64,000 nucleotides of DNA from a virus. The stretch is taken from the IMG/VR virus record IMGVR_UViG_3300017613_001755, positions 1-64,000 of that record; one strand, written 5' to 3'. Below the pieces are notes generated by a model that was not told the DNA's origin, ran no database searches, and worked only from the letters and a program-made list of their open reading frames with translations. Both the position numbers and the translations under genes were made by a program. Shown here one piece after another: positions 9,983 to 40,071 of this stretch (within the stretch, counting starts at the first letter, position 1; every line of letters starts with the position of its first letter).

Positions 9983-10657
9983 ATGACAGTACCTTCGGTA
10001 GCACTACTTGTTATTTTCCCGGAATTGATCCACGCAAAGTTTGTGGTCGAGACGCTGGTTCCCCTTATGGGTCTGCCACACATCAGCATGCTTCTCACTA
10101 AGATTGGAATGCGCTCGGAGTATGCTCGAGAGGTCTTGATTAGGCAGTTCCTTGAGATGCCCGAGTATGAATGGCTTTTTATTGTTGACTGTGATATGCT
10201 TATACCTCAGGATGCTCTTCCAAAGCTACTGAATAGTGGCAAAAAGGTCATTAGTGGATTGTACTTCTCTCGTGGAGACCGGACCTGGCCTATAGTGTTC
10301 CGGGAAGAAGAGCCAGTGGGACGATTTCCAATGTCTCGCTGGTTTGACTATCCAGACGGCGGGGTATATCCTGTGGGGGCAACCGGACATGGCTGCCTGC
10401 TGATTCACAAAAGCGTTTTGGAGCAACTTGAGCCACCCTACTCTCAACTAGGGCCGTTTATGGACGAGCCTCTTGTTGGCAGCGATGTAAGGCTTTGTCT
10501 CAAGATAAGAGATGAAACCAACGAGAAAATTTGGTGTGACTTTTCTGTGAGGTGCGGGCATCTGACGACAAGAGCAGTTGAGGAAAAGGACTGGGAAGCT
10601 ATAAAAGAACAATCAATAGCAGAATGGACAAATTATCTAAGGGAGAGAGAAAAATGA
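9983..10657 (+). CDS. glycosyltransferase, GT-A fold type
   Basis: A 224-residue protein; ATG 9983 follows CAGGGGTGA. The nucleotide-sugar/metal site is visible as FIVDCDMLIP (DxD type), followed by YFSRGDRTWPIVF, ATGHGCLLIHKSVLE and a C-terminal VRCGHLTTRAV. It resembles the protein at 19454-20197 in layout (DxD, LYF-R, G-x-GC-LI, V-CGH) and both may belong to one phage glycosyltransferase family. It is the first gene of the island. Donor and acceptor are unknown. Confidence 0.75.
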   Translation: MTVPSVALLVIFPELIHAKFVVETLVPLMGLPHISMLLTKIGMRSEYAREVLIRQFLEMPEYEWLFIVDCDMLIPQDALPKLLNSGKKVISGLYFSRGDRTWPIVFREEEPVGRFPMSRWFDYPDGGVYPVGATGHGCLLIHKSVLEQLEPPYSQLGPFMDEPLVGSDVRLCLKIRDETNEKIWCDFSVRCGHLTTRAVEEKDWEAIKEQSIAEWTNYLREREK

Positions 10658-10866
10658 CACAGTTAACCGGAAATCACTTGGTCCAAATGAGACAGCAACA
10701 CCTGGCAAGGAAAGACCAGATAGAGGATCAGATAGAGGACCTGATAGGTGAATTGAACCAGCACAAGGGCGCTGTTGCAGCCCTCGATCAGATTCTTCTG
10801 CTTGGCAAGCAGCTAGCAGAGGACGTTAATCCGGCCACAGACCCTAATGCTGAAAGCGACCAATGA
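10654..10866 (+). CDS. small coiled-coil protein
   Basis: A 70-residue protein starting in an ATGA overlap with the preceding gene, with GGGAGAGA upstream. It is almost entirely helical with heptad-like spacing (QHLARKDQIEDQIEDLIGEL) and an acidic tail. It may be a scaffold or subunit for neighbouring enzymes. No family is recognised. Confidence 0.6.
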   Translation: MTQLTGNHLVQMRQQHLARKDQIEDQIEDLIGELNQHKGAVAALDQILLLGKQLAEDVNPATDPNAESDQ

Positions 10867-11450
10867 TATGTAAAGAGTTCATCCACATAGGAATGGGCGA
10901 TACTGGGGAGGGCATGATTCGCTATGCCCTTCACACGCATATGGCGGGAAAGGTCGCCTGGATTGACAGTCAGGCACACCGCTGGCTGACAGATGCGCGC
11001 AAGTACTCTGATGCTCCTGCTTTTTCCTTTGTCCGCAATCCATTTGACTGGTATATCTCGTTCTGGATTCATGAATTAAAACTACAGCGATGGCGCGGGG
11101 ACTTTGGTAGCTGGCTGGTTGGTTACAATGGCAAGGGTGTGTGTATGGCAAATTACTGGGATAATTTTACAAAGCCCGGCATAGAGCATGTAGGGCAGTT
11201 TGAATCCCTGGCAGAGGACCTGTCAAACATCTTGCCGGAGATAGCACCGGGCCTGGTGACTAAGGTGGAGGTGCTTAGCTGGTTCCCAGATGCATACAGG
11301 CAGTGGGGTACCCGGCCCTGGATAGAGAGTATCGAGCAGTATATGCGAGACGAACTTTATGCACCCTGGATGGTTGATCGTGTATACCTTCAGGACGCCG
11401 AGATTTTCGAAAAGTGGGGTTATAGATATGAGGATCGGTATATCTTCTAG
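10863..11450 (+). CDS. sulfotransferase-like protein
   Basis: A 195-residue protein starting in an ATGA overlap. It shows the two cofactor signatures of PAPS-dependent sulfotransferases: an N-terminal P-loop-like IHIGMGDTGEGM (phosphosulfate end) and SFVRNPFDWYISFWIHE (3'-phosphate site). The length fits the short Sulfotransfer_2/3 type. It would move sulfate from PAPS to a sugar or protein hydroxyl; in this island a glycan is the likely acceptor. PAPS would come from the host. Confidence 0.7.
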   Translation: MICKEFIHIGMGDTGEGMIRYALHTHMAGKVAWIDSQAHRWLTDARKYSDAPAFSFVRNPFDWYISFWIHELKLQRWRGDFGSWLVGYNGKGVCMANYWDNFTKPGIEHVGQFESLAEDLSNILPEIAPGLVTKVEVLSWFPDAYRQWGTRPWIESIEQYMRDELYAPWMVDRVYLQDAEIFEKWGYRYEDRYIF

Positions 11451-11988
11451 TGCCGTTGTCCTGGCAGCGGGCCTGCAAACCCGCTTTGGCGAGGATGAGG
11501 CACCTAAATGCTTGCAGCGGCTAAACGGACAAACAATCCTCGGCCGTCTTGCACGCCAGCTTAATATGCCCATTGTAACTGTGGTCGGGGCAACTTGGGA
11601 CGGTTCCCATATAGCAGAGGCCGCAGAATTCGGGCAGGTGGTAAAGATGGACCCAGGACTATCCATCGGCCACTCGGTTGCAGCCGGACTAGAGGCTTCA
11701 CGGGAGGCTGACCAGTCCCTGATAATTGCGGCCGACACCGTGATTCCTGGTCATATCGACCGCGTTCCACGTGGCCTCAAGTGGGCTATCCTTGATCCTT
11801 GGGAGTGGATAGTGCTCTATGCTCTCAAGCCCAACCAGGACACAATAGATGATTGCCGGGACCGTTGCGAGGACCGGGTTGAGTACTTGTGGCAGGCAAG
11901 GATGCCTGTAGACATTATCAAAACCGGATGGATAAATGTGAACACCAGGAAGGACCTGGAAAGGGCTAGGGAACTATGCTCGGGATAA
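11428..11988 (+). CDS. MobA/sugar-nucleotidyltransferase-like protein
   Basis: About 186 residues from ATG 11428, overlapping the previous gene by 23 bases. The N-terminal signature AVVLAAGLQTRFGEDEAPKCL is the NTP-transferase motif with its conserved Lys, and TILGRLARQL and IIAADTVI follow. Related enzymes make NDP-sugars from sugar-1-phosphates, or molybdopterin cofactors. The neighbours favour activation of a sugar or similar precursor. It is shorter than full nucleotidyltransferases (250-300 residues) and nearer MobA/IspD-like size. Confidence 0.72.
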   Translation: MRIGISSSAVVLAAGLQTRFGEDEAPKCLQRLNGQTILGRLARQLNMPIVTVVGATWDGSHIAEAAEFGQVVKMDPGLSIGHSVAAGLEASREADQSLIIAADTVIPGHIDRVPRGLKWAILDPWEWIVLYALKPNQDTIDDCRDRCEDRVEYLWQARMPVDIIKTGWINVNTRKDLERARELCSG

Positions 11989-12731
11989 AGGCGCGTTGGC
12001 GAAGATTGTTTGGCACCCTTGAGGTTTCAGTTGTTGTAGCCACGTGGAATAGGCTTCGGCTTCTAAAGAAGTGTATCAAGAGTGCCCGCCGTTCTACCAA
12101 ATGGCTCAGCTATGAGATCGTTGTTGTCGACGGAGGCTCAGATGATGGCACGCAGCGCTGGTGTCTTGCACAGCCCGATGTGGTTCTGATCGCGCAAAAG
12201 GAATTGGTTGGGGCCATTCGCGCATTCAACACTGGATTCGCACACGCTAGGGGCCGATACGTGGTCCACCTCAATGATGATTGCGAGGTTGTGGGTGACT
12301 GTATCTACGATGCCTGGGAGTTTCTTGAAAATGAGGATTCCTGGAACGTCGGGCAGTTAGCCTTCCCGTTCCGTGATCCGGGACAAGAATATAAGTTGCA
12401 ACTGGTCTCCCACCGTCCCTATGCAAACTTTGGCATGACCAGGAGATGGCTGGGGAACCACGTGGGATGGTGGGGCACACGCGCGCACACCTACTCTGGT
12501 GACCCCGAGTTGAGCCTTTCAATCCAGGCCCGAGGCTTCAGGGTGGTGGGAAGTAATAATTGTGTGGTGGACCATCTCCGCCACCATGATACTCTTCGTG
12601 CAAGGTACCAGATAAACAAAGATAACGAGCAGCTATACGCGCGCTGGGGGCGTGACTGGTTCCCTTGCCCCGAGTACCCACTACTGACAGAGAAACAGTA
12701 CGAGAGCGGAGACCTGCCGTTCATCTCATAA
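11976..12731 (+). CDS. family 2 glycosyltransferase
   Basis: A 251-residue protein overlapping the previous gene by 13 bases. The GT2 core is clear: VSVVVATWNRLRLLKKCIKS, IVVVDGGSDDGT, GAIRAFNTGFAHARG and the HLNDDCEV metal site. A basic N-terminus (KARWRRLFG) may touch membrane or acceptor. It would transfer one sugar, with inversion, to an unknown acceptor. Confidence 0.85.
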   Translation: MLGIKARWRRLFGTLEVSVVVATWNRLRLLKKCIKSARRSTKWLSYEIVVVDGGSDDGTQRWCLAQPDVVLIAQKELVGAIRAFNTGFAHARGRYVVHLNDDCEVVGDCIYDAWEFLENEDSWNVGQLAFPFRDPGQEYKLQLVSHRPYANFGMTRRWLGNHVGWWGTRAHTYSGDPELSLSIQARGFRVVGSNNCVVDHLRHHDTLRARYQINKDNEQLYARWGRDWFPCPEYPLLTEKQYESGDLPFIS

Positions 12732-12735
12732 GACT

Positions 12736-13599
12736 ATGCCCAAGATAACTTTCCAAATGATAGTGTTCAACGGGGATCATGTTCTCGAGCAGGTCTTGCA
12801 GTCCATTCTTCCCTTTGGCCCCCTGGTCGTTACTGAGGGGCCAGTGGACTACTGGCGCAGTCGCGGTTTTACTGGTAGCACTGACAGAACCCTGGAAATT
12901 CTAGAGGAATACCGGAACTATGGGCATGGGATACTAGGGGTAGTGAGCGGTGCATTCATCGAGAAAGACTATATGATGAATGCTGCTATGCATCTGGTCC
13001 CTGATGACACCACGCACCTGTGGATGGTCGACTCTGACGAAGTGTATAAGCCGGATGACCTAGAATTTATCGTTCAACAGATAGATGAATATGGATATGA
13101 CAGCGTAGAGTTTAAGCCCTACTCATTCTATGGGGGCTTTGATTACTACATGACCGGACATGAGGAAAAGGCCATTTGGCGCAGGGTGCAACGGTATTAC
13201 CCAGGGGCCAAGTGGTTGACACATCGCCCTCCAACAATTCTCCTGCCAGACGGCGATAAACCAAGCACCCTGGGCGGTCAGACCCTGCTTCAGTATGACC
13301 TGAGAATCTATCATTACAGTTATGTTTTCCCATCTCAGGTCAAGACAAAGACTGAATACTACTTCCAGAGATCGCCACAGCGGACTATCCCGGACTACTT
13401 TAACCGGGTTTACCTTCCCTGGGTTCTGGGAAAGAGGGAAGAAGTCGAGGAACAGTACGATGGAGTCCACGAGCTATGGCCTGTGAACAGAATGCATAGC
13501 AGGACCGAGCCATTCAAAGGGGAGCATCCCGAGGTCATCAGTCTAGCGATAGACTCGCTACAGGAGCGACTGGACCGCGAGTTGGAGAAACACACATGA
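12736..13599 (+). CDS. family 2-like glycosyltransferase
   Basis: A 287-residue protein. It opens with ITFQMIVFNGDHVLEQVLQS, has GSTDRTLEIL, and a metal motif at MVDSDEVYKPDDL. The C-terminal half is Tyr/Trp-rich with HRPPTILLP and a basic SQVKTKTEYYFQR. It resembles GT2 proteins that act on cell-surface glycans. It overlaps the next gene by ATGA. Confidence 0.75.
   Translation: MPKITFQMIVFNGDHVLEQVLQSILPFGPLVVTEGPVDYWRSRGFTGSTDRTLEILEEYRNYGHGILGVVSGAFIEKDYMMNAAMHLVPDDTTHLWMVDSDEVYKPDDLEFIVQQIDEYGYDSVEFKPYSFYGGFDYYMTGHEEKAIWRRVQRYYPGAKWLTHRPPTILLPDGDKPSTLGGQTLLQYDLRIYHYSYVFPSQVKTKTEYYFQRSPQRTIPDYFNRVYLPWVLGKREEVEEQYDGVHELWPVNRMHSRTEPFKGEHPEVISLAIDSLQERLDRELEKHT
13540..13555. repeat. 16-bp inverted repeat, copy 1
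   Basis: AGTCTAGCGATAGACT, six-base arms around GCGA. An identical copy is at 21938-21953 and a 15/16 match at 55172-55187. All lie inside coding regions and read L-A-I-D in their frames. Confidence 0.6.
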
Positions 13600-14204
13600 A
13601 ATTACACTTAGGTTGTGGAACAGTTTATCTGGATGGGTACTGCAATGTAGACATTATTGGACATTTGGCGGTCGACCGCCCCGATCTTGTCGAAGTAAAC
13701 TGTACAACGCTCGACAATTACTACAAGTTACCAGTGAAGGAGGCAATCAAGGCTGCTCCTACAAGAGAGGTGGTCGTAGATTTCCGTGATGACATTGTTC
13801 ATCTTGACACTTTTATGTCATTTGGCTACAGTTCTCAGGAGGCAACAGAGATAGTGGCAATCCAGGCGCTTGAGCACTTTGTGCCAGAGGATGCGAAGAT
13901 AGCACTGGAAACCTGGTATCTCACCCTAAAGCATGGTGGGCACCTCTTGCTCTCCGTACCCGATTTTCCAGAAGTTGCACGAATGTACTTGATGGCAGAA
14001 ACCGAGGAAGAAAAGGATTGGTGCTTGCGTCAAATCTACGGGAGCCACAAGGATGATTACGCTCATCACTATGATGGATACTCGCTAGCCAAGCTGACTA
14101 GAATGCTTGAGGAGGCTGGCTTCACTGACATTGAGCCGCAGCGCAACTTCCATGACTATCCCGCGATAGTGATAAAGGCTACAAAATGCGCCATGACCAC
14201 ATAG
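13596..14204 (+). CDS. SAM-dependent methyltransferase (COG4627-like)
   Basis: A 202-residue protein starting in an ATGA overlap. It has the short opening KLHLGCGTVYLDGYCNVDI typical of methyltransferases found in glycan clusters, then IQALEHFVPEDA, HGGHLLLSVPDF and YDGYSLAKLTRMLEEAGF. It would methylate a sugar hydroxyl or similar group using S-adenosylmethionine. Confidence 0.78.
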   Translation: MKLHLGCGTVYLDGYCNVDIIGHLAVDRPDLVEVNCTTLDNYYKLPVKEAIKAAPTREVVVDFRDDIVHLDTFMSFGYSSQEATEIVAIQALEHFVPEDAKIALETWYLTLKHGGHLLLSVPDFPEVARMYLMAETEEEKDWCLRQIYGSHKDDYAHHYDGYSLAKLTRMLEEAGFTDIEPQRNFHDYPAIVIKATKCAMTT

Positions 14205-14830
14205 TCCAAGCCTGGCAAGCTCCCGAGGTTGCACAGGCGCAACTAGGCCTCGTGAGAAAGGAACTTGTGAACCCGCTGGATGTGGCCCCATTCAGGTTCT
14301 TTCTTGAGACCATGCAAGAGATGCACGAGACAGACTTAATGCCTCGCAAGCTACTGGATGTGGGCTGTGGCGTAGGCCATTACTCAGAACTATTGCGGAG
14401 GTTCTACCCGGAAGTGGAGTACACTGGCATTGACTTCTCGGAATCAATGATAGAGCTTGCGCAGGCAGAGTTCGGAAATAATGGCACATTTCTCGCCACC
14501 GATCTATTTGACTTTGATTTCACTGGATTTGATACAGTGCTAGCCTCTTCTGTGGCTGACGTTACAAATGAGCATATGGCATATATGAACCATATTGCAT
14601 CGCGGGCCGAGGGAACTATTATCTGGCATCGAGTGAAAGCTTCTGCATGTCCCACATATGTGGAATTGCGCCCTAGTTATGAAAAGAAGCTAACCTATTC
14701 TGTCACATACAATCAAGGAACGTTTGTAAATCTCTTTGCGGAGTTCGGATTCACACACTGCCTACGAGTCAGGTGGGGCAGGGGCGACATTGGCACATAC
14801 GTGATATGGAGGGAAGATGACCGAGCTTGA
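14186..14830 (+). CDS. class I SAM-dependent methyltransferase
   Basis: A 214-residue protein overlapping the previous gene by 19 bases. SAM-binding motif I is LLDVGCGVGHYSELL, followed by YTGIDFSESMIELA (motif II) and LASSVADV. Substrate unknown; sugar O- or N-methylation fits the context. Confidence 0.8.
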   Translation: MRHDHIVQAWQAPEVAQAQLGLVRKELVNPLDVAPFRFFLETMQEMHETDLMPRKLLDVGCGVGHYSELLRRFYPEVEYTGIDFSESMIELAQAEFGNNGTFLATDLFDFDFTGFDTVLASSVADVTNEHMAYMNHIASRAEGTIIWHRVKASACPTYVELRPSYEKKLTYSVTYNQGTFVNLFAEFGFTHCLRVRWGRGDIGTYVIWREDDRA

Positions 14831-15449
14831 TTTAGGTTTGCCGGAAGAGAATTGGTTTAACCATATGCGACCGTTCACATTTCTTCTGGACAGGTTCGTG
14901 GGGGAACCTGGCGTGGAGTTCTTAGAGCTTGGTTCTTGGAAGGGACGGAGCGCGATCTGGCTTGTGGAAAACATTCTGACCGGGAAGGGCAGTCAGGTAT
15001 CCTGCGTGGACACCTGGGATGTGGGCAAGTGGGAGGACAGCAATCCCTCAAAAGAGCGCTTCGAGGGTCTGAAAGACAAGTACAGAACAGATGAATTGTA
15101 CGAGATTTTCTTGCACAACATCAAGGGCTTTCAGGACAAGATCGTTCCGTACAGAATGCTGACGACCGAGGCCCTGGCGTTGTTCGCACGCGATGGCATG
15201 CTGTTCGACTTTATCTATATTGATGCAGACCACAGCACGGTGGCTGTCATCGAGGACTTTAGGAGTGCCCTTCATTGCATCAAAGATAACGGTATTATTT
15301 TCTTTGACGACGTAAAGTGGAGTGTCGACGGAGTGGCACCTGTCAGCGTGGCTATTGAGTACATTAAAGAGGAGTATGGCATTGTAGTTATGCCCATAAG
15401 CGAAAATGGATCATATTACCAGCACAAACCCGTTCGAACACACTCGTAG
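14817..15449 (+). CDS. class I SAM-dependent methyltransferase (Methyltransf_24-like)
   Basis: A 210-residue protein overlapping the previous gene by 14 bases. Motif I is FLELGSWKGRSAIWL, with VSCVDTWDVGKW as the ribose-binding region and DFIYIDADHSTVAVIEDF followed by GIIFFDDV, typical of the family that includes macrocin- and cephalosporin-type enzymes. It probably methylates a sugar hydroxyl. Confidence 0.78.
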   Translation: MTELDLGLPEENWFNHMRPFTFLLDRFVGEPGVEFLELGSWKGRSAIWLVENILTGKGSQVSCVDTWDVGKWEDSNPSKERFEGLKDKYRTDELYEIFLHNIKGFQDKIVPYRMLTTEALALFARDGMLFDFIYIDADHSTVAVIEDFRSALHCIKDNGIIFFDDVKWSVDGVAPVSVAIEYIKEEYGIVVMPISENGSYYQHKPVRTHS

Positions 15450-16110
15450 TGTTGCTATTGAGCTATCCAATCAGTGCAGTTATGCTCCTTTGCACCCTCG
15501 CTGTCCGGCACACTATGTAAAGGAACCAATTACTCTGCCAGTTTCAACTGCCGAGACTGTTATCGAGACTCTTGGTCGGTATGAGTATTCAGGCGAACTG
15601 GCTTTCCATCTGTACAATGAGCCTTTGGAAGACCCCCGGCTATTCTACCTGTTAAATTTTGCGATTGAGGCATGTCCTTTCGCTGACCCGTATGTTGTAA
15701 CTAATGGAGGGCGGCTAACCGAGGTAATGCTGAGAGAATTGCAGGACTACGGGGCCAAGGTACTTGTTACGCCCTATAAGCCAGAGGTGAGAGATCGCAT
15801 AGTGCCGTGGGTGAGAAATGGAGATGTCTCTACAATGAACGTGGGGCTAGACTCGCGCCTGGGTATCTACGATGGACTATATGTGGACCTGGACCTTCCC
15901 TGTCTTGCCCCGCTGAACCAAGTCATCATTACTTGTGATCGGCAGGTAGGTCTATGTTGTATGGACCACGCGCGCAAGCATACACTAGGGCCTGCCGACA
16001 GATTGGCCGAGGTGCTATTGGGTGATAAAGCCAATGGAATTTACCAGGCTCTTAGCCAAGGACATAGAGGCATACTGGACATATGCAGGAGATGCCAATG
16101 GACGAGATGA
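15406..16110 (+). CDS. radical-SAM/SPASM-like protein with atypical cysteine spacing
   Basis: A 234-residue protein overlapping the previous gene by 44 bases. The start resembles radical SAM proteins (VAIELSNQCSYAPLHPRCP), but the cluster motif reads C-x8-C instead of C-x3-C-x2-C. A barrel-like middle (ELAFHLYNEPLEDP, VVTNGG) and a Cys-rich SPASM-like end (CLAP...ITC...GLCCMDH...CRRCQ) follow. It may be an active variant with unusual ligands or a degenerate relative. The context suggests a sugar- or peptide-modifying role. Confidence 0.6.
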   Translation: MDHITSTNPFEHTRSVAIELSNQCSYAPLHPRCPAHYVKEPITLPVSTAETVIETLGRYEYSGELAFHLYNEPLEDPRLFYLLNFAIEACPFADPYVVTNGGRLTEVMLRELQDYGAKVLVTPYKPEVRDRIVPWVRNGDVSTMNVGLDSRLGIYDGLYVDLDLPCLAPLNQVIITCDRQVGLCCMDHARKHTLGPADRLAEVLLGDKANGIYQALSQGHRGILDICRRCQWTR

Positions 16111-16967
16111 TACATTTAGCAACGCTGTTTGATTCACACTATCTAGACAGAGGAGTTGCATTCATCTCCTCGCTCCAACACCATCTCAAATCATATCGGC
16201 TGTATGTACTGGCTTGTGACGACCTGACTGCGGCGTGGTTCCAGAACAATCCGGCCGAGAATGTAATTGTTATGCCGTTGTTTCATCTGAATGTAGAGGG
16301 ACTAAAGGAAGCCCACGAGGGCAGGACCCACACCGAGTTCATGTGGACCCTAGCTTCAGTGTGGTCTAATGTCTGTCTATCCGGGCTGGGCGCGCCTCAT
16401 ATCACCTATGTTGACGCTGACTGTTTTCTGTTCGGGGACCTCGCCCCGCTCTACCAAGAGATTGGAGGCGCGAGTGTGGCAATCACTCCGCACAGGTTCC
16501 CTCCAGCGCTGAAGCATAAGGCGATCAATGGGACCTTCAATGTTGGGGTAGTTTACTTTAAGAATGACCCGGTAGGCCGCGAGTGTGCAAAGACTTGGAG
16601 TGACCAGTGTATTGAGTGGTGCTATTACCGAAACGAGGATGGCAAGTTTGGCGACCAAATGTATCTGGATACCTGGCCCCAAGATTATGGCGCGCACATT
16701 ATCCAGCATCTGGGGGTGAATCTGGCCCCCTGGAACCAGGAGCAGTATATTTATACTGTTGCAGGCAGCAAGATGTTTGTGAACACGGACCAGGTGTTGA
16801 TCTACCATTTTCACAGATTCTTACAAAGCCAGTGGGCCACATATCAGCTTAATCCGATAGTGCATGAGTATTTGTATACGCCATATGCAGAATTGCTACA
16901 AGCAATTGGGGAGAAGATACATGCAGCGGGAGCGGGAGATAACCTTACACGCGGACAAGAGGGGTAA
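16098..16967 (+). CDS. glycosyltransferase, GT8-like
   Basis: About 289 residues. ATG 16098 has GGAG six bases upstream; ATG 16107, overlapping the previous stop as ATGA, is the alternative. Features are LATLFDSHYLDRGVAFISSL at the start, ITYVDADCFLFGDLAPL (DxD metal site), then FNVGVVYFKND and GDQMYLDTWP, an order seen in GT8-type nucleotide-diphospho-sugar transferases. A C-terminal HFHRFLQSQW may bind metal or acceptor. Confidence 0.75.
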   Translation: MDEMIHLATLFDSHYLDRGVAFISSLQHHLKSYRLYVLACDDLTAAWFQNNPAENVIVMPLFHLNVEGLKEAHEGRTHTEFMWTLASVWSNVCLSGLGAPHITYVDADCFLFGDLAPLYQEIGGASVAITPHRFPPALKHKAINGTFNVGVVYFKNDPVGRECAKTWSDQCIEWCYYRNEDGKFGDQMYLDTWPQDYGAHIIQHLGVNLAPWNQEQYIYTVAGSKMFVNTDQVLIYHFHRFLQSQWATYQLNPIVHEYLYTPYAELLQAIGEKIHAAGAGDNLTRGQEG

Positions 16968-17379
16968 CCTGTTTGAGCTATTCCGAACGGCCGAACACGA
17001 TGTTGCTATGGCGTACTGTGTCACCACCAAGGTCAGACAGGCGAGGGATGCCAAGGTGTGGCACTTTCATAAGCACAAGACAGAGACCTTTATCCCGGTG
17101 AAGGGTGTCTCTGAGATATTGGTCGCCACATATCCCAACAAGGGATTGGGCGCACTGATCCGGTACAGGCTCGATGCACAGTTACCATGGGCCATCACTG
17201 TGCTCCCCGGCGAGCTACACTCCGTGAGAACACCGGATGGATTCGGGTCTGCAACGCTAGTTGTTTTGTGTGACAAAGTTTATGATCCAGAGGACGAGCA
17301 TCGTTTAGAGATGACTTCTGACTGGGGGTGGGGAGATGTTGGCTTACGCCGATCCGAAACGAAGCTACCTGGAACATAG
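16921..17379 (+). CDS. cupin, sugar-epimerase/isomerase-like (RmlC/WxcM type)
   Basis: A 152-residue protein; ATG 16921 follows GGGGAGAAG and overlaps the glycosyltransferase. It opens with the sugar-nucleotide signature DKRGNLFELFR and has a cupin metal motif in VWHFHKHKTETFIPVKG and a second one near LPGELHSV. Such proteins epimerise or isomerise 4-keto-6-deoxy-NDP-sugars. The aminotransferase directly downstream suggests the pair makes an amino-deoxy sugar, as FdtA/FdtB do. The exact reaction is not determined. Confidence 0.7.
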   Translation: MQREREITLHADKRGNLFELFRTAEHDVAMAYCVTTKVRQARDAKVWHFHKHKTETFIPVKGVSEILVATYPNKGLGALIRYRLDAQLPWAITVLPGELHSVRTPDGFGSATLVVLCDKVYDPEDEHRLEMTSDWGWGDVGLRRSETKLPGT

Positions 17380-18457
17380 GTATGCAATAGGCGATGCAAT
17401 TCTTGCAGAGCTTGAGGCTGGGCAGTACATACTGGGCGAGTCTGTTGAGAGATTCGAAGAGGAATTCGCAGATTTTTGCTCAGCGGGCTATGCTATTGGC
17501 GTTAATTCTGGGACTGACGCACTTGCCATTTGCCTCATGGCATGTGACGTAGGGCCAGGGGATGAGGTAATTGTTCCGGGCCATACTGCTCCGCCTACAG
17601 TCTCGGCTGTCAAGCAGGTGGGGGCAACGCCAGTGTTTGTCGACATCACTGCGACCTGTCTCATTGACATAGACCGAATAGAAGAAGCAATCACGCCCCA
17701 GACCAGGGCTATCATCCCAGTTCATTTGTATGGATGTCCGGTTGATATGTCCCGGATGATCCGGGTGGGCACAAAGCATGGCATTAAGATTATCGAGGAC
17801 TGCGCACAGGCCGTAGGCTCCGCTTGGTTCGGGTCACCCGCAGGGTCCTGGGGAGACATGGCGGCATTCTCTTTCTACCCCACCAAGAACCTGGGTGCCT
17901 TGGGAGATGGTGGTGCTGTAGTGACCAGCGATCTCTTGCTTGCTGAGAGGGCCATAGAGCTTCGGCAATATGGATGGGAAGCGCTGGGGTCACGCTCCTA
18001 CCAGCAGATTTGTCATGATAGGGGAATCAACTCACGCCTGGATTCCCTCCAGGCTGCCATTCTGCGAGTTAAGCTAAGTAATATCAAGTATGACCTACAC
18101 CGCCGCCGAATCATTGCCAGGACATATCGAAATTATCTACTGGATACCTCCTACGGGTTACCGAGTGACCCGCCAGGAGGCCTGCACTCCTACAATATGT
18201 ACGTGATTGCTACCAGCGACCGGGATAATGTCAGGCGCATATTGAGGGAAAGGGGCATTCATTGTGGCGTGCATTACTATCCGCCAGTTGCAACGCACCC
18301 AGCGTTTTGGTCTATGGCAGAGCCAATTGAGCAGTGTTTAGACTGGACATGGGAGGCGGCCGGGACGGTGCTTTCGCTGCCAATGTTCCCGCAGCTTACA
18401 GAAGAAGAACAGGATATGGTCATTCAAGCATTGTATCAAGCTGATCCGGGAGGATAA
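17336..18457 (+). CDS. DegT/DnrJ/EryC1-family sugar aminotransferase
   Basis: A 373-residue protein overlapping the cupin gene by 44 bases. The PLP fold is clear: GVNSGTDALAICL, IPVHLYGCPVDM, IIEDCAQAVGSAW, AAFSFYPTKNLGALGDGG with the Schiff-base Lys, and GINSRLDSLQAAIL. Full length for the family. It would transfer an amino group from glutamate to a keto-NDP-sugar, giving an amino sugar for the island's glycosyltransferases. Confidence 0.9.
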   Translation: MLAYADPKRSYLEHRYAIGDAILAELEAGQYILGESVERFEEEFADFCSAGYAIGVNSGTDALAICLMACDVGPGDEVIVPGHTAPPTVSAVKQVGATPVFVDITATCLIDIDRIEEAITPQTRAIIPVHLYGCPVDMSRMIRVGTKHGIKIIEDCAQAVGSAWFGSPAGSWGDMAAFSFYPTKNLGALGDGGAVVTSDLLLAERAIELRQYGWEALGSRSYQQICHDRGINSRLDSLQAAILRVKLSNIKYDLHRRRIIARTYRNYLLDTSYGLPSDPPGGLHSYNMYVIATSDRDNVRRILRERGIHCGVHYYPPVATHPAFWSMAEPIEQCLDWTWEAAGTVLSLPMFPQLTEEEQDMVIQALYQADPGG

Positions 18458-18458
18458 T

Positions 18459-19439: not shown

Positions 19440-19453
19440 TAGGAGCTAGTACA

Positions 19454-30476: not shown

Positions 30477-30820
30477 TGAACAATAGCGGACTGCCCAAGA
30501 AGCTTGTAGAATGGCTATTCTGTGTTAATAGCTATGGTGACCGCATGGTTGAAGACTGGGAGTTTCCGTACATTGTTGCTCGGTGGCATCAGATCAAGGA
30601 CGAGATTACTATTATCGAGGGGTCTATTGAGGAGAATCAGCCCAACGCTATACTGGTTGATATAAGTCATATCAAGAACCAGAAGGAGGGCAGGAAAGAC
30701 AAGGCCTATCTCACCCTGGCCCATTATCTGCGCCCTTGCCCCTGCGATGAGTGCCCCCATGATTGGCAGTATGAGTGTTTCTTGGTAAATTGCAAGTGCT
30801 GTACAGAGGTCTGTAACTAA
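30476..30820 (+). CDS. small cysteine-rich protein
   Basis: A 114-residue protein whose ends overlap its neighbours by one base. The C-terminal 30 residues hold nine Cys, all after RPCPCDECPHDW, ending CKCCTEVCN, suggesting disulfides or zinc. The N-terminal part is a helical/strand mix. It could cap or crosslink the surface proteins on either side. Confidence 0.6.
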   Translation: MNNSGLPKKLVEWLFCVNSYGDRMVEDWEFPYIVARWHQIKDEITIIEGSIEENQPNAILVDISHIKNQKEGRKDKAYLTLAHYLRPCPCDECPHDWQYECFLVNCKCCTEVCN

Positions 30821-33800
30821 TGCCTATTGGTGATACCGCAAAATATAGGGTAGGCACCTTCGCGCTCCCAACGTCAGAGGATAGCTGGGAAGGCGTGGAG
30901 TTTTCTGCTCCTGTCGGTACGCCAGCGGCCATTTTTGTCCAAGATGCCAATGACATAGATGTACAAATAGATGAGACTGGGTATTACCTGGCGATCTATC
31001 GGGTGAGGACTGTTGGCGAGTCAGATAGCCGCATGATTGGTGCTGTTCGGGCCTTGTGGAACAGTAGCGAGATCGTAGGCGGTCGCAGCGCCAACTTTAT
31101 GCGGCAGAATGAAGATGACGAGATTTGTGCGGGGGGCCATTGTATCTTCAAGGTAACCAGCACGGGTGCAGACTTCCGCGTGGAGTACATGACCCGTGGA
31201 GAGGATTCCACTCCCACAGACGATGCAACCGCAGACTCGGAGCTAGCACTAATCAAGCTGGCTGATGTTACACCCGCTGTTGCGTTTGGGTTGTACGCCG
31301 AGGGCACCGACACTGGTGCCTACAACTCCGGTTCCTTTGCCCCGCTGATGTTCGACACCACAACCGAGGAAACCGACACGGGCGTAATTGAGATTCAGGG
31401 AGTTGACAACGAGGCCATCACGCTCAAGTCGATAGCACGGTATTTGGTAGCGTACAATGTGACATTTGCGGGCACCGCTCGTGCGGCAAGGGTTGTCTGT
31501 GCCACGCTAGATGGAACGATTATTCCGCAGAGTAACAGTGCGCTGTATTTGCGTGACACCGACACAGACTATGAGACTGCATCCTGTATTTTCATTGTAG
31601 ACAATGACACCGAGAATCTAGACCTACAAATAGAGGTGTATCAGGGCGCTAGCAGCACTTCTGGTGCCAGAAGTGCTACGGCTGGGTGGGAGAGTGGCCT
31701 GTTTGTGATGGAGCTACCAAGCTCCGCCGAGGTTGTAATTGGCAACGATGCAACAGGTGCGCAGGAAACAACCGCCACTGGCTACCTCAATGCGTGCAGA
31801 ACTACCCCAACGATAGATGCAGCTTCATTCACAAGGAATGACAATACCACCATTGAGGTAGAGGTTGAGGATGATTATTTGTTCACGGTTGGGGCTAGGA
31901 TCAACCGTGCATCTTCCACGGGTACACGTAGCCAGCATGGTCTAAGGTGGACTAACAACGACGCGAATCAGGAAGAGATTTCCATTAAGTATATGCGAGG
32001 GTTGCAGAGCAGCACCGCCACATACGATGCCGCTTTTTCTGGCAGCTTCATGGCCGCCCTCGCGGTTGATGACGAGATTGAGTTTGAGTTCTTTCAGGCT
32101 TCCTCGGCTGGTCTAGGACAGACGGTGGGCGACAGTGTTGGAATGTCTGCACTCAGGATTAGTACTCTGGTCGCCGCCGCGACTACATCTACCTCAACCA
32201 CAACTTCGACTTCTACATCCACCACAACCACATCAAGCTCGACCTCAACTTCAACCTCGACATCCACATCAACTACCACCACATCGTCTAGTACATCGAC
32301 AACTACAAGCACATCGACCAGTACCACTACTACCTCGTCGTCTACATCTACCAGTACTACGACAACGCTGCCATACCAAGTGGATGATGTGATCCTGGAA
32401 TGGGCAACTACGTCCACGAGCACCACCACCAGCACTTCTACGAGCACCACTACAACGAGTTCTAGTACGTCTACCACGACCTCTACCTCCACTAGCACGA
32501 CAACCACGTCATCGTCTACCAGCACTACCACATCCTCATCTACATCAACCAGTACTACCACTACATCATCTTCGACTTCCACGACAACTAGCACGAGTAC
32601 TTCTACTACCACTACATCATCGTCAACTTCTACATCTACTAGCACGACCACAACTAGTAGCTCAACCAGCACCAGCACGTCTACTACCACCACATCCTCA
32701 TCTACGTCTACGACAACTAGCACCAGCACATCTACTACTACAACCAGTAGCTCGACTAGCACGACGACATCTACGAGCACGTCTACTACTACCACATCGT
32801 CATCTACGAGCACGTCTACTACAACATCGACTTCAACCAGCACAACTACAACGTCAAGCTCTACCAGTACAACCACATCCACCAGTACTAGCACAACCAC
32901 TACATCGTCATCTACGAGTACCAGCACGAGCACGAGCACTACTACCACGTCGTCATCTACGTCTACGAGCACTAGCACGAGCACTACCACCACGTCAAGC
33001 TCGACATCTACAAGTACGTCAACTAGCACTAGCACAACTACTACATCCTCGTCCACATCAACTACAACCAGCACAAGCACGTCTACTACTACTACGTCAA
33101 GTTCTACCAGCACGTCTACGAGTACATCCACCACCACAACCAGTAGCTCAACCAGCACAACTACCACGTCATCGTCTACGTCAACTACAACCAGCACAAG
33201 CACATCTACCACCACAACTTCGTCCAGCACCAGCACCTCAACCTCGACTACCACTTCGCTCACAAGCACATCTACTACCTCGACTACCTCAACATCGACC
33301 AGCACCACTACTACCTCGTCGTCTACCTCGACCTCGACTACCACGACAAGCTCAAGTACTTCTACCACGACCAGTACGAGCACTAGCACCTCGACTACTA
33401 CCACGTCGAGTTCTACAAGCACGTCAACGAGCACATCAACTACCACAACCAGTAGCTCGACCAGCACATCAACTAGCACCACCACGACCAGTAGCTCAAC
33501 CAGCACAAGCACGTCAACTACCACCACGAGTAGTTCAACTAGCACAAGTACGTCAACTAGCACAACCACAACTAGTTCATCCACATCTACGAGCACATCC
33601 ACTTCAACTACGACCACATCGAGCAGTACAAGTACGTCTACATCTACAACCACCACATCAAGTAGTACGTCAACTAGCACCAGTACTACGACCACCACGT
33701 CAAGCAGTACGTCAACCAGTACCAGTACTACGACAACTTCTTCAAGTACTTCGACCAGTACTTCGACCACTACAACCAGTTCGAGTACATCCACCTCGAC

Positions 33801-34101
33801 CTCAACTTCGACTAGTACGACTACAACCAGTAGTTCTACCAGTACATCAACTACAACCAGCACTACAACATCTAGCTCGACCTCGACAACTACAACGCTA
33901 ACAAGTACAACTACAACACTGCTGGAATACACGGAAAGCACGGAGGTGCGCCTCACGGCGACTTCGGATGCAGAGGCACGCCTAACGGGCACTTCTGACG
34001 CAAAGATAAAGTCAACAGTAACAAGCAACGTCAGCGTAAAGATCACTGGTACCAGCAATGTGAAGGTACGCGTCACCGGGACAGCTAACACAGAGTACTA
34101 A
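30820..34101 (+). CDS. giant virion protein with mucin-like Thr/Ser tract
   Basis: A 1093-residue protein. Residues 1-~450 contain about three consecutive beta-sandwich repeats (each with a VGTFALPTS/AFGLYAEGT-like start and a hydrophobic-alternating core), like C1q/jelly-roll phage head-fibre domains. Residues ~453-1032 are almost only Thr and Ser, built from about 35 variations of TTTTSSSTST, broken near 517-530 by LPYQVDDVILEWA. The C-terminal ~60 residues (EVRLTATSDAEARLTGTSDA and similar) form short imperfect repeats. The tract would be an extended stalk and an ideal O-glycan acceptor. No enzyme motif. Confidence 0.8.
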   Translation: MPIGDTAKYRVGTFALPTSEDSWEGVEFSAPVGTPAAIFVQDANDIDVQIDETGYYLAIYRVRTVGESDSRMIGAVRALWNSSEIVGGRSANFMRQNEDDEICAGGHCIFKVTSTGADFRVEYMTRGEDSTPTDDATADSELALIKLADVTPAVAFGLYAEGTDTGAYNSGSFAPLMFDTTTEETDTGVIEIQGVDNEAITLKSIARYLVAYNVTFAGTARAARVVCATLDGTIIPQSNSALYLRDTDTDYETASCIFIVDNDTENLDLQIEVYQGASSTSGARSATAGWESGLFVMELPSSAEVVIGNDATGAQETTATGYLNACRTTPTIDAASFTRNDNTTIEVEVEDDYLFTVGARINRASSTGTRSQHGLRWTNNDANQEEISIKYMRGLQSSTATYDAAFSGSFMAALAVDDEIEFEFFQASSAGLGQTVGDSVGMSALRISTLVAAATTSTSTTTSTSTSTTTTSSSTSTSTSTSTSTTTTSSSTSTTTSTSTSTTTTSSSTSTSTTTTLPYQVDDVILEWATTSTSTTTSTSTSTTTTSSSTSTTTSTSTSTTTTSSSTSTTTSSSTSTSTTTTSSSTSTTTSTSTSTTTTSSSTSTSTSTTTTSSSTSTSTSTTTTSSSTSTTTSTSTSTTTTSSSTSTTTSTSTSTTTTSSSTSTSTTTSTSTSTTTTSSSTSTTTSTSTSTTTTSSSTSTSTSTSTTTTSSSTSTSTSTSTTTTSSSTSTSTSTSTSTTTTSSSTSTTTSTSTSTTTTSSSTSTSTSTSTTTTSSSTSTTTTSSSTSTTTSTSTSTTTTSSSTSTSTSTTTSLTSTSTTSTTSTSTSTTTTSSSTSTSTTTTSSSTSTTTSTSTSTSTTTTSSSTSTSTSTSTTTTSSSTSTSTSTTTTSSSTSTSTSTTTTSSSTSTSTSTSTTTTSSSTSTSTSTSTTTTSSSTSTSTSTTTTSSSTSTSTSTTTTTSSSTSTSTSTTTTSSSTSTSTSTTTTSSSTSTSTSTSTSTTTTSSSTSTSTTTSTTTSSSTSTTTTLTSTTTTLLEYTESTEVRLTATSDAEARLTGTSDAKIKSTVTSNVSVKITGTSNVKVRVTGTANTEY
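32183..33920 (+). repeat. Thr/Ser low-complexity coding repeat
   Basis: The DNA encodes about 580 Thr/Ser residues. The protein motif recurs about 35 times, yet codons vary freely: all four Thr codons and all six Ser codons appear, so nucleotide repeats are broken up. A long open frame on the opposite strand (32094-34091) is a by-product of this composition. Confidence 0.85.
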
Positions 34102-34153
34102 CCTTGCCATCGGATTGTTCCGGCGTTAGAATTAGGGGTATAGGAGTAGCTTC

Positions 34154-36050: not shown

Positions 36051-36051
36051 A

Positions 36052-36522: not shown

Positions 36523-36531
36523 GAGTGATGC

Positions 36532-36861
36532 ATGGCAGGTATTAGCAACACGGAGTTGAAGAAGTTGATTGAGCAGAATTTTGGTCATCTAGCCAAAAAG
36601 ATTGAGGGCTATCGCAAGGAATCAGTTACAGAAATAAAGGGACTACGAGAAGATCACCACGAACTATGTGGGCGTATGATTACGCTGGAAGAGCGGCAGT
36701 TGGGTCACACCACCAACGAACACAAGCATATCACTGAGACACTTTCAACGCTGGCGGAAGGGCAAAAAAGTAATACCGCGCGCCTATTCGATCAGGGGGT
36801 TCGTCTAGCAGAGCTTGCGGCCCTAGTTGCTGCTGTTGCAAAGCTAGCGGGGTTATGGTAG
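36532..36861 (+). CDS. coiled-coil protein with hydrophobic C-terminus
   Basis: A 109-residue protein behind AGGAGTG. Long helix with heptads (LKKLIEQNFGHLAKKIEGYRK ... ITETLSTLAEGQKSN) ends in the hydrophobic LAELAALVAAVAKLAGLW. The layout recalls XhlA-type membrane-associated lysis helpers; an alternative is a tail assembly factor. Overlaps the next gene by 7 bases. Confidence 0.55.
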   Translation: MAGISNTELKKLIEQNFGHLAKKIEGYRKESVTEIKGLREDHHELCGRMITLEERQLGHTTNEHKHITETLSTLAEGQKSNTARLFDQGVRLAELAALVAAVAKLAGLW

Positions 36862-37544
36862 AAATAGCAGTTGTCGTACCAACACACAACGAAAGAAAGC
36901 GCATCATCCCTCTCCTAGAGGGGATGCCAGAGTACTGTCACCCCATCATTCTTGACGACAGTACTGACAACACAGCCCAGCTTGCCAAGGAGAGGGGGGC
37001 CACTACTGTATCCTTTCCTAATGTGGCCTGGCAGTTTATTCCCCTGAAGTATCTTTATGGGCTAAAGTATGCGCGGCAGTCAGGGTACGATTGGGCATGC
37101 ACTATGGACAGCGGCGAGAACTTTGACCCCGATTGGATCAACAAGTTGGTTATAGCAAACACTGACGGCGTGGCCGATATAGTGATTGGGGCCAGGGAGT
37201 TCCATGGTCGTGGCTTGCGCCGACTGATTTCCAACATTGCCTCGCGTATCACAGGGCTGGGCCTGCCCGACAGCACAAGCGGGTTCCGGCTCTACCGTCT
37301 AGACAGTCTAAATCTGGAAAGGTTTCAGTCTCGTACCCCACATGCCTTCCAGGTTGAATTGCTACTCAAACACAAGAATCACAACATTAGGTCTGTACCA
37401 ATCCCTTACCGTGCTCCAAAGAACAGCACCATGTCTTTAGGGACATTCCTTGACTGGGCACGGATGTATCTTGCAACTAAAGGAGGCGCGGGTGAAAGCA
37501 TCCGTGAACATAGCGGCAGCAGACTGGAAGATAGGCACCTTTAG
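36855..37544 (+). CDS. polyprenol-phosphate-type family 2 glycosyltransferase (DPM1-like)
   Basis: A 229-residue protein. Motifs of dolichol/undecaprenol-phosphate sugar transferases: EIAVVVPTHNERKRIIPLL, IILDDSTDNTAQLAKE, TMDSGENFDPDWINKL and DSTSGFRLYRLDSL. No transmembrane segment follows, as in DPM1-type enzymes. It could load a sugar onto a host lipid carrier, linking the phage's sugar genes to membrane steps. Confidence 0.78.
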   Translation: MVEIAVVVPTHNERKRIIPLLEGMPEYCHPIILDDSTDNTAQLAKERGATTVSFPNVAWQFIPLKYLYGLKYARQSGYDWACTMDSGENFDPDWINKLVIANTDGVADIVIGAREFHGRGLRRLISNIASRITGLGLPDSTSGFRLYRLDSLNLERFQSRTPHAFQVELLLKHKNHNIRSVPIPYRAPKNSTMSLGTFLDWARMYLATKGGAGESIREHSGSRLEDRHL

Positions 37545-38244
37545 AAACACGTGGGCCTCTCTTCTACAACAGACGTACTCCCCACTAGAAGTCTCTCTGG
37601 TAATCGTCGAGCGCAACGGCGCTGTGCGGGAGTGGCTTGACAAACAAGATCGTCCACCATTCGAGATAAAGGTCCAAGTTTGTGAGTGTCCTTCTCTCCA
37701 TGGTCGAGCCACACACAACCAGATGGCCCTCGACATCCAAGAAGGAGATGTGTACCTGGGAGCGCAGGATGATATGGTATATCCTCCCGAGTGGGTTGAG
37801 AGCCATATACCCTGGCACACAAGCAGCAATGGCCCCTGGCTTGTTTTCAATCCCTTCGTTTCCGAGCTTTCAGATGGCTCATTGGGATTCGACCATGCGT
37901 GGTGGAACCGAAGAATGGACCCTGTGCAGACCCCCGTTGTCCTGCGCTGGCAATATATGAGCGGGCATGGTCTCTCTGTTCCAATGGATAAGGCAAGGCT
38001 CGTGGGGCATGAGAGCGCCTTCGATGGGAAATATGGCTACGAGGATTTGCATTTTTCCTATCTACTGTTTGACGCTGGCTGCAAGTGCGTCTTTGATGTG
38101 AAGGTCAAGCCAATGCACCAGTACCATGGCTATCCCTGGGAAAAGCCCTGGGACGAATATATAGACTGGATCAGACAAAAGACAGCAAACAAACATCTGT
38201 TTGAGGAATTGAATGGCGTAACTCCAGAGTATGGGCATATCTAA
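37492..38244 (+). CDS. family 2-like glycosyltransferase
   Basis: A 250-residue protein. GTG 37492 is the start because AAAGGAGG lies five bases upstream; it overlaps the preceding gene by 53 bases. Motifs: ASLLQQTYSPLEVSLVIVE, GRATHNQMALDIQEGDVYLGAQDDMVYPPEW (metal site QDD) and GYEDLHFSYLLFDAG. It runs into a convergent HNH gene with a 4-base overlap of ends. Confidence 0.72.
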   Translation: MKASVNIAAADWKIGTFRNTWASLLQQTYSPLEVSLVIVERNGAVREWLDKQDRPPFEIKVQVCECPSLHGRATHNQMALDIQEGDVYLGAQDDMVYPPEWVESHIPWHTSSNGPWLVFNPFVSELSDGSLGFDHAWWNRRMDPVQTPVVLRWQYMSGHGLSVPMDKARLVGHESAFDGKYGYEDLHFSYLLFDAGCKCVFDVKVKPMHQYHGYPWEKPWDEYIDWIRQKTANKHLFEELNGVTPEYGHI

Positions 38245-38990
38245 TCAGTCCAGCTTGCCAATAGCCCTTCCCTGTTTGTAAAAATCTGCTGCTCTATCTT
38301 GGGATGGCATTGACGACATAAAGCAACTAGATTGGACATTCTGTTGGCCTGGACGTAATCGTCGCCAAACTCTCTAAAGGGAACAATATGGTGAACTACA
38401 AGTTGGGCACCAAGCACATCTTCGCTGGCCCCACAGAATTCACACTTGTATTCCGCGCGATAGCGTGCATTTCTTCGCTGCTGGCCCCAGCTTGGTCCCC
38501 TGCGTCCATCGTCCTTGATTTTATACACATGTCCACTCCAGCGGCTTTTCATGTTTGCCTTTGCAGCCTCACTCAGGGCCTGCTTGGTCTTTTTGGCTCC
38601 GAGGTGATTGGCCCGAACCGCAATTTGCTGGGCGGTAAATCTGGGAAAGAACTCCCGAAGCTTCTTGGATACCAGGCGGGGATAGAGGCTAACAAGCAGC
38701 CTGTCTTCCTCTCTCGACCAGGGGGTATGGGAGCGCACCAGATTTTCTCGCCAAGCCTCGCTGAAAGACGGACGAGAACTCCCGATCAGCGTGCGTGCGA
38801 GATGCTTCGGAAGAAACCTTCTTCTTTTTGGAGTTTTCCCGCTGTACAGGTACCAGCTTTTGACGGGATTGCCGCACCCACATTCGCATGGATGGGTTGC
38901 TTCTTGACAAGCCTTGCAAAATCCCCTAAACTGAGTTTTGGGATTGAGGGTAGAATCACACACTTTGCACTGTAAATATCTAATAGGCAT
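38241..38990 (-). CDS. HNH endonuclease, free-standing
   Basis: A 249-residue protein on the opposite strand to its surroundings. The N-terminus has a zinc region (CKVCDSTLNPKTQFRGFCKACQ and CECGCGNP). The middle carries a DNA-binding-like REEDRLLVSLYPRLVSKKL (SANT/Myb-like) segment. The C-terminus is the HNH nuclease: CEFCGA, LVVHHIVPF, MSNLVALCRQCHPKIE. It has its own promoter with nearly no leader. This is a typical mobile homing-type gene; I see no intron around it. Confidence 0.88.
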   Translation of the reverse strand: MPIRYLQCKVCDSTLNPKTQFRGFCKACQEATHPCECGCGNPVKSWYLYSGKTPKRRRFLPKHLARTLIGSSRPSFSEAWRENLVRSHTPWSREEDRLLVSLYPRLVSKKLREFFPRFTAQQIAVRANHLGAKKTKQALSEAAKANMKSRWSGHVYKIKDDGRRGPSWGQQRRNARYRAEYKCEFCGASEDVLGAQLVVHHIVPFREFGDDYVQANRMSNLVALCRQCHPKIEQQIFTNREGLLASWTD

Positions 38991-38999
38991 GATACGTTT

Positions 39000-39028
39000 A
39001 TGATAACATCATATTGCGATTATGTCAA
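39000..39028 (-). promoter_or_regulatory. sigma-70 promoter of the HNH gene
   Basis: On the minus strand TTGACA (39028-39023) and TATCAT (39005-39000) are 17 bases apart. The predicted start, about 38993, is three bases before the ATG, so the transcript would be almost leaderless. Confidence 0.7.
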
Positions 39029-39039
39029 ACAGGAGACCC

Positions 39040-40071
39040 ATGACAATCAAACATATAGCTGTTGTTTTTCCCGCCACTGCATCTGGCCCAAAGGATGTTG
39101 CAGTAGGCTACCTAGACGCCTTCAGGAATATGGGCCTGCAGGCCAACGCGATAGACTTCCATAGCCTAGTCACCCTATGGCACCAGACCTTAACTTTTCG
39201 CGGTCTCTTCGACAGCAAGGCTAAGCCAGAGGTCGACAAGCAGGGAATCCTGGAAAGGGCTAGTGGCGATGTCGCATTCCAGGCCATGCGCACATTCCCC
39301 GATCTAATAGTTGTAATTGACGGAACACAGGTACATCGTCTGGCCTGGAACACGTGGGAGCGTGTAGGTATTCCTACAGCCCTAGTGATGACCGAGTGTC
39401 CCTACCGCGACCCTATACATGGTTATCTGGCAAAGGTTGCTGACTTTGCGTTTGCCAATGACAGGGCAAGCGCGCGGACCTTTGGAATTCCCTATCTCCC
39501 CACAGCCTGTGACCCAGAGATTCATCATCCAATGATTGTGTCGTCAAGGCACAAAAAGGATGCTGTGTTTGTAGGAAGCGGGTGGAAAGAGCGCATCGAG
39601 ATGCTTGAGGGAGTGAACTGGGATGGCATTGATTTCACTCTGATAGGACAATACCCGTTCGATCACGAGCATCCACTGGGGAAGCATTATCATCGAGCCA
39701 TTGTCGCTAACCCGGAGGCTGCAATGTTCTACAACGGTGCTAAGGTGAATATGAATCTTTCCCGCACCAGTGTGGACTATGCTGGCGAGGAAACTGTTGT
39801 GGAGGCGGAGAGTATTAACCCACGATGCTACGAGCTAGCAGGTTGCGGCTCATTCTTTGTATCGCAGAAGGGCCGCCCGGAACTCGAGGAGATATTTGGC
39901 GACCTGGTTCCAACCTTTGATACTGCCGAGGAACTTGAGGCACTTATCCGAGAGTGGATACCGCGCGAGGAGGATAGGAAAGAGATTGGAAGAGAGCTAA
40001 ACCGTATTGCTTTTGCTGGACATACTTATGAGGACCGCGCGGCCCGACTGCTCGAGGGGATCGCGCTATAG
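39040..40071 (+). CDS. CgeB-like GT-B glycosyltransferase
   Basis: A 343-residue protein; ATG 39040 is preceded by CAGGAG, while an earlier ATG at 39022 lies in the HNH promoter. N-terminal KHIAVVFPATASGPKDVAVGYL, central KKDAVFVGSGWKERIEML and C-terminal NPRCYELAGCGSFFVSQKGRPELEEIF (donor site) match the CgeB/DUF3880 family of glycosyltransferases. It lies between the HNH gene and the lysin gene. Confidence 0.8.
   Translation: MTIKHIAVVFPATASGPKDVAVGYLDAFRNMGLQANAIDFHSLVTLWHQTLTFRGLFDSKAKPEVDKQGILERASGDVAFQAMRTFPDLIVVIDGTQVHRLAWNTWERVGIPTALVMTECPYRDPIHGYLAKVADFAFANDRASARTFGIPYLPTACDPEIHHPMIVSSRHKKDAVFVGSGWKERIEMLEGVNWDGIDFTLIGQYPFDHEHPLGKHYHRAIVANPEAAMFYNGAKVNMNLSRTSVDYAGEETVVEAESINPRCYELAGCGSFFVSQKGRPELEEIFGDLVPTFDTAEELEALIREWIPREEDRKEIGRELNRIAFAGHTYEDRAARLLEGIAL

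Follow-up and report, generated by a model that had tools for sequence, protein, structure and literature searches.

A recurrent glycosyltransferase cassette paired with giant Thr/Ser-rich proteins suggests mucin-like self-glycosylation in uncultivated tailed phages

To our knowledge, glycosylation of the virion has been proven in few bacterial virus systems. Mycobacteriophage glycans are reported at the C-termini of capsid and tail-tube subunits (Freeman et al. 2023, as cited in PMC12619734 and PMC13313380). Chlorovirus PBCV-1 encodes glycosyltransferases (GTs) that build complex glycans on a particle protein independently of host organelles (PMC7826918), and Megavirinae carry clusters of 6-33 genes, comprising GTs and nucleotide-sugar enzymes, that provide rare amino sugars for surface fibrils (PMC10117803). 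Here we describe a gene cluster at positions 9,977-40,071 of a 64,000-base stretch of viral DNA (the window), namely bases 1-64,000 of the linear IMG/VR virus record IMGVR_UViG_3300017613_001755, which is 64,083 bases long and may be incomplete. The cluster probably encodes a cytosolic, modular O-glycosylation cassette acting on mucin-like virion proteins, for which we infer the acceptor, the sugars and the benefit. Phage-encoded virion glycosylation is already known; what appears to be new is a recurrent cassette paired with giant Thr/Ser proteins. In the literature searched, which included few subscription journals, we found no phage pairing of a GT-methyltransferase-deacetylase cassette with such proteins.

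As in known cases of virus-encoded virion glycosylation, the window (at the level of its genes) holds GTs whose catalytic motifs are intact, with EX7E and DxD found in the core enzymes by motif inspection. In contrast to the mycobacteriophage system, the cassette has many enzymes, including methyltransferases, a deacetylase-like domain and sugar-nucleotide genes, and is tied to long mucin-like proteins. Searches with tblastn gave no match in 50,697 phage records for 21146 or 27655 (genes are named by their first base in the window), the only two GTs compared, and none among isolated phages for the N-terminal part of the 1093-residue Thr/Ser protein. PBCV-1 likewise encodes its own GTs, and the fold search with 21146 matches a GT of chlorovirus NY2A; however, PBCV-1 is a eukaryotic virus with N-linked glycans on its major capsid protein and no Thr/Ser tract. 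The Megavirinae are giant viruses of amoebae, and we claim no homology of acceptors with them.

Relatives of the cluster were sought by scanning viral contigs for TTTTSSSTSTST with a degenerate DNA pattern. In one locus found this way (L098), GT, methyltransferase and deacetylase-like genes with 25-36% identity to their window counterparts precede a Thr/Ser protein; another (L089) has a GT4 sharing 44% identity with 21146, and between it and the major capsid gene are two small proteins with Thr/Ser tails. GT alignments from these two loci led to at least 39 GT4 loci and at least 48 GT2 loci, partly on shared contigs. Homologues of the core GTs, about 25-50% identical, occur in dozens of contigs from uncultivated phages with Thr/Ser-tract genes at their flanks, and the gene order of the cassette is recurrent among the relatives. 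The association frequencies are rough, being drawn from the matches listed and from truncated contigs, and the Fisher tests ignore phylogeny. Among the matches listed, 20 GT4 loci were distinct (38-51% identity to 21146, <90% to each other), and 16 of them contain Thr/Ser-tract open reading frames (ORFs), always on the same strand and with the nearest 61-2,678 bases upstream of the GT4. Such ORFs were found in 0/48 random viral loci (chosen by an arbitrary 14-mer; 377 kb) and in 0/8 viral loci with DegT homologues (Fisher, 3e-12 and 2e-4, respectively).

The GT2 at the other end of the core gives a matching result. Downstream of 27655-type enzymes (29-41% identity), a Thr/Ser protein starts within 3 kb in 17 of the 18 loci whose contig continues for at least 3 kb beyond the gene, whereas none was seen downstream of distant GT2 homologues (22-24% identity; 0/8), a difference with a Fisher value of 6e-6, or 0.003 without near-duplicates. 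The linkage tests tie the enzymes genetically to their presumed acceptor. Tracts beside the cassette reach 1,571 residues and >98% Thr/Ser. The longest frame (L250) has 1607 residues, of which 1571 lie in the tract and few at either end, and sits ~1.8 kb downstream of a GT2 at 9771-10469 (+); L246 and L255 carry giant frames resembling it. One 834-residue protein (L162:14510-17011, +) has a virion-like N-terminus and includes both a SAM-methyltransferase domain and ~280 residues of Thr/Ser tract, and is possibly a fusion of enzyme and acceptor.

In the window, residues 453-1034 of the 1093-residue protein (32176-33921) consist of 321 Thr and 243 Ser (564/582, 97%). The preliminary description of this DNA had named two proteins with long Thr/Ser tracts; this one holds up, with its 582 residues, while the 377-residue protein proved to be a LamG domain with a Thr/Ser tract of ~30 residues. 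In the long tract, amino-acid autocorrelation reaches 0.63-0.68 at lags of 13, 15 and 17 residues and is 0.32-0.34 at the adjacent even lags. Codon agreement of Thr-Thr pairs at the same three lags is ~0.25, which is the shuffled rate, and all four Thr codons and all six Ser codons are used. Periodic amino acids together with random synonymous codons imply that the tract is old relative to synonymous drift and has been kept as protein, and selection appears to act on its protein sequence. A recent DNA repeat expansion (a fresh microsatellite) was considered as the source and is ruled out by the random synonymous codons. The same test gave a result like that of the window in 10 of 12 relatives (|z| <2), with residual repetition at the DNA level in the other two, L258 (z 4.5) and L236 (z 2.6).

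Like animal mucins, these proteins have very long repetitive Thr/Ser-rich tracts, the expected acceptors of O-glycans, and both here and in most of the relatives tested the tract is conserved as protein. They differ from animal mucins, with which there is no homology, in that the window tract is almost devoid of proline (one in 582 residues) and so lacks the Pro-Thr-Ser composition of mucin-like domains. BclA-type proteins have C1q/TNF-like heads and a Thr-rich stalk with O-linked deoxy- and amino-sugars. The glycan of a BclA-type exosporium glycoprotein is described in PMC6222408. The N-terminal repeat of the 1093-residue protein gave TNF/C1q-like fold matches, but with a low-confidence model (predicted local distance difference test, pLDDT, 56.5), so that this weak resemblance is a lead only; moreover, BclA is a bacterial spore protein with collagen repeats, and the 1093-residue protein has none.

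The cassette may also move between phages. The portal of the window is ≤34% identical to portals of isolated phages, which identifies a tailed phage; its major head protein is phrog_1005, and a tape-measure protein is also present. At megablast sensitivity the cluster has no DNA match in the 50,697 phage records, and peptide patterns from the portal and from the N-terminus of the Thr/Ser protein found no match in viral contigs. Window proteins that match the 48 loci compared are GTs, methyltransferases and sugar enzymes only, with no head or tail protein among them. The head modules differ as well: phrog_1005 in the window versus a gpT-like major capsid protein with an SU10-type portal in L144/L089. 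At least two head modules, unrelated to judge by sequence, carry the cassette, and its comparable position in phages with unrelated heads points to a functional module. An antisense HNH endonuclease ORF lies inside the GT region of the window, and HNH-like genes were seen by eye amid the cassettes of L098 and L168; such genes may aid cassette movement.

Gene content was largely as the preliminary description had it. Its count of about 13 GTs is fair: nine pass the Pfam curated cut-off (11976, 12736, 21146, 22572, 23332, 26771, 27655, 36855 and 39022) and PHROGs adds 9977 and 19454, which makes 11 that are well supported, while 37450 is sub-threshold and 16083 has a DxD motif without a family match. 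The predicted core cassette GTs are two GT4 enzymes (21146, 26771) and three GT2 enzymes (22572, 23332, 27655). A structure-based search, which had been proposed for each transferase, was run for 21146. Its predicted structure (pLDDT 91.9) has a GT-B fold with the EX7E motif of retaining enzymes, and the matches, which include MshA and BshA, have high probability and a low overall template-modelling (TM) score (~0.35), perhaps owing to domain orientation. None of the cassette GTs has a convincing transmembrane segment (9977 is borderline at 1.68), and family scans and the transmembrane check found no flippase, polymerase or membrane GT among the cluster genes.

The proposed sugar-supply and decoration genes were borne out by Pfam or by solved relatives, with one exception. 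Six methyltransferases pass the cut-off (13596, 14186, 14817, 24107, 25207 and 25725). The DegT aminotransferase (17336; E=7.5e-101) retains the pyridoxal-phosphate lysine, and its solved relatives include sugar aminotransferases, with QdtB among the best; the epimerase (18459; E=1.2e-48) is nearest to solved GDP-L-fucose synthases. The cupin (16864) scores above the cut-off for PF14667 and below it for FdtA; its solved-structure search returned only kinase matches, which we judged spurious. The nucleoside triphosphate (NTP) transferase (11359) is MobA-like and above the Pfam cut-off. The exception is 10863, whose identity as a sulfotransferase is doubtful: it falls below the cut-off, and the N-terminal motif for binding 3'-phosphoadenosine 5'-phosphosulfate was not recognised. 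Two features are additions to the earlier inventory, a possible SPASM protein at 15406 and, joined to the methyltransferase of 24107, a domain resembling polysaccharide deacetylases that lies just below the Pfam cut-off and has the D-D, HxxxH and RPPG motifs.

We propose that the soluble cassette works in the cytoplasm of the infected host. DegT, cupin, epimerase and NTP transferase would supply unusual nucleotide sugars, possibly of amino-deoxy or fucose type; the GT4 and GT2 enzymes would add and then extend sugars on Thr and Ser, before or during particle assembly; and decoration of the chains would fall to the methyltransferases and the deacetylase domain. The likely acceptors, given the linkage, are the 582-residue tract and the shorter one in the LamG protein, and the outcome would be a brush of glycans around the particle, on whose surface the tract proteins are presumed to reside. 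As no membrane GT, flippase or polymerase was found, direct cytosolic transfer to protein is likelier than lipid-linked assembly. The 21146-type GT4 is the enzyme nearest to the upstream tract genes in GT4 loci and is thus a candidate for addition of the first sugar.

Self-glycosylation of the Thr/Ser proteins, which the preliminary description had suggested for this phage, is the best-supported reading, since the cassette is found together with Thr/Ser-tract genes across divergent phages. Among the benefits put forward there (imitation of host glycans, concealment from receptors, survival outside cells), the evidence favours none over the others. Several observations weigh against it. Four of the 20 distinct GT4 loci have no tract, at least some of them on contigs that break off shortly past the cassette, and the distant GT2 control amounts to three distinct sequences. 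The pattern sample contained 44 loci with a tract (short loci, ~8.5 kb), and only L098 and L089 showed core-GT homologues; the other 42, in which none was detected, imply that the tract does not require these enzymes. No cassette enzyme is close to any characterised protein O-glycosyltransferase in particular. Finally, the upstream half of the cluster (9977-19439) is far less conserved than the core and may be aimed at another target. A Thr/Ser tract alone was rejected as a marker of glycosylation: most tract-bearing loci of the pattern sample showed no GT close by, and the GT-positive ORFs are largely those of L098 and L089. Among the 25 commonest families of the control ORFs there is no GT.

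The enzymes might instead glycosylate other virion proteins (capsid, tail tube or fibres), leaving the Thr/Ser tracts as flexible, unglycosylated spacers in the same late operon. A precedent comes from mycobacteriophages, whose capsid and tail-tube subunits are reported to carry glycans (cited in PMC12619734), and viral contigs commonly contain short Thr/Ser linkers in phage loci where no cassette was detected. However, tract genes flank the cassette far above the controls, the tracts near it extend to ~1,570 residues at >98% Thr/Ser, which is far beyond the needs of a spacer, and their pattern is preserved at the protein level, so we consider this arrangement unlikely. The preliminary description held that host lipopolysaccharide or phage DNA as the target would speak against self-glycosylation, and gene content disfavours both. 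A role in superinfection exclusion or serotype conversion, through remodelling of O-antigen, capsule or a similar polymer on the host surface, would suit the DegT, cupin and epimerase genes, which are typical of O-antigen sugar pathways, and the weak-score likeness of the 22572 GT2 to phage families labelled GtrB-like O-antigen conversion. Yet serotype-conversion (Gtr) clusters have a membrane GtrA flippase and membrane GTs, and neither of these, nor a polymerase, was recognised in the window cluster; its genes lie amid virion genes and are tied to Thr/Ser proteins in divergent phages, which makes such a role very improbable. Glycosylation of hypermodified bases in phage DNA is the least credible target: phage GTs are known to modify DNA, and the weak viral fold matches of 21146 include a predicted DNA alpha-glucosyltransferase, but none of the scanned proteins (a subset of the ORFs of this possibly incomplete record) was recognised as thymidylate-synthase-like, a hydroxymethylase or a dioxygenase, and the only DNA-modification gene seen among them is a Dam methylase. 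The number and diversity of the GTs and their placement beside tract genes also fit DNA glycosylation poorly.

A scan of genome collections for a host gave at least six matches in metagenome-assembled genomes, among them chromosomal loci of gammaproteobacterial type without tracts. In one such genome, from a Desulfobacteraceae bacterium (L223:6683-15718), a prophage-like region encodes proteins with Thr-rich tails and, after them, a GT4 homologue and other genes probably concerned with glycans, and is a lead to an inducible system. In an Anaerolineales genome (L222:9998-11293, +), a GT4 homologue adjoins genes that by eye resemble a phage-tail-like apparatus. Features of the cluster are collected in Table 1. 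Just beyond it, 40081-43488 (+) encodes a 1135-residue protein with an M23 peptidase domain and flanks that look glycoside hydrolase-like by eye, and 5466-6107 encodes another M23 protein. Elsewhere the window encodes a VWA-domain protein (44686-45771, -), a radical-SAM protein (60648-61394, -) and, by eye, an SPFH/prohibitin-type membrane protein (62564-63625, -).

Table 1. Predicted genes of the cluster in window coordinates, with the basis of each assignment.
Feature	Position	Strand	Basis
Glycosyltransferase-like (phrog_12406), DxD	9977..10657	+	PHROGs, motif
Sulfotransferase-like, weak	10863..11450	+	E=0.0043, below cut-off
MobA-like NTP transferase, possible sugar-nucleotide synthesis	11359..11988	+	Pfam
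GT2 glycosyltransferase	11976..12731	+	Pfam above cut-off
GT2 glycosyltransferase	12736..13599	+	Pfam above cut-off
SAM methyltransferase (Methyltransf_23)	13596..14204	+	Pfam
SAM methyltransferase (Methyltransf_25)	14186..14830	+	Pfam
SAM methyltransferase (Methyltransf_24)	14817..15449	+	Pfam
Possible radical-SAM/SPASM protein	15406..16110	+	Sub-threshold
Possible glycosyltransferase	16083..16967	+	DxD only, no family match
Cupin, Polysacc_synt_C / FdtA-like sugar isomerase candidate	16864..17379	+	Pfam
DegT/DnrJ/EryC1 sugar aminotransferase	17336..18457	+	Pfam, solved relatives, motif
NAD-dependent epimerase	18459..19439	+	Pfam, GDP-L-fucose synthases nearest
Glycosyltransferase-like (phrog_12406/1574)	19454..20197	+	PHROGs
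Phage protein phrog_5335, putative virion protein	20167..20754	+	PHROGs
Small putative virion protein just before core cassette	20758..21126	+	Position; homologue in GT4-bearing locus L058
Core cassette GT4, GT-B fold, EX7E	21146..22414	+	Pfam, model, motif
Core cassette GT2	22572..23330	+	Pfam, homologues in relatives
Core cassette GT2	23332..24114	+	Pfam, homologues in relatives
Methyltransferase + polysaccharide-deacetylase-like domain, fused; separate genes in L098	24107..25261	+	Pfam, motifs
SAM methyltransferase	25207..25788	+	Pfam
C-terminal SAM methyltransferase (FtsJ-like) in larger protein	25725..26783	+	Pfam
Core cassette GT4	26771..27670	+	Pfam, homologues in relatives
Core cassette GT2; in relatives typically final cassette gene before giant Thr/Ser proteins	27655..28479	+	Pfam, relatives
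Putative virion protein between cassette and Thr/Ser proteins	28825..29322	+	Position only, no family match
LamG-domain protein, short Thr/Ser tract ~30010-30105	29343..30476	+	Family scans
1093-residue mucin-like protein with three diverged repeats at its N-terminus (TNF/C1q-like in a low-confidence model), the Thr/Ser tract at 32176-33921 and a short C-terminal tail	30820..34101	+	
GT2 glycosyltransferase	36855..37544	+	Pfam above cut-off
GT2-like	37450..38244	+	Sub-threshold
HNH endonuclease ORF, antisense inside GT region	38241..38990	-	Family scan
Glyco_trans_1_2 glycosyltransferase	39022..40071	+	Pfam above cut-off

Given the recurring pairing of cassette and tract, these viruses may cover their particles with a mucin-like brush of sugars. 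We lean slightly towards the broader view that many uncultivated tailed phages carry viral mucins (in some cases >98% Thr/Ser over >1,000 residues) together with an exchangeable cassette, found across unrelated capsids, that builds and decorates the brush. Genes usually annotated as scattered auxiliary genes would then form a concrete pairing of enzymes and acceptor and would be a source of O-glycosyltransferases that function in the bacterial cytoplasm. For the phages themselves, a mucin-like coat may be a general means to tune adsorption, diffusion, stability or recognition.

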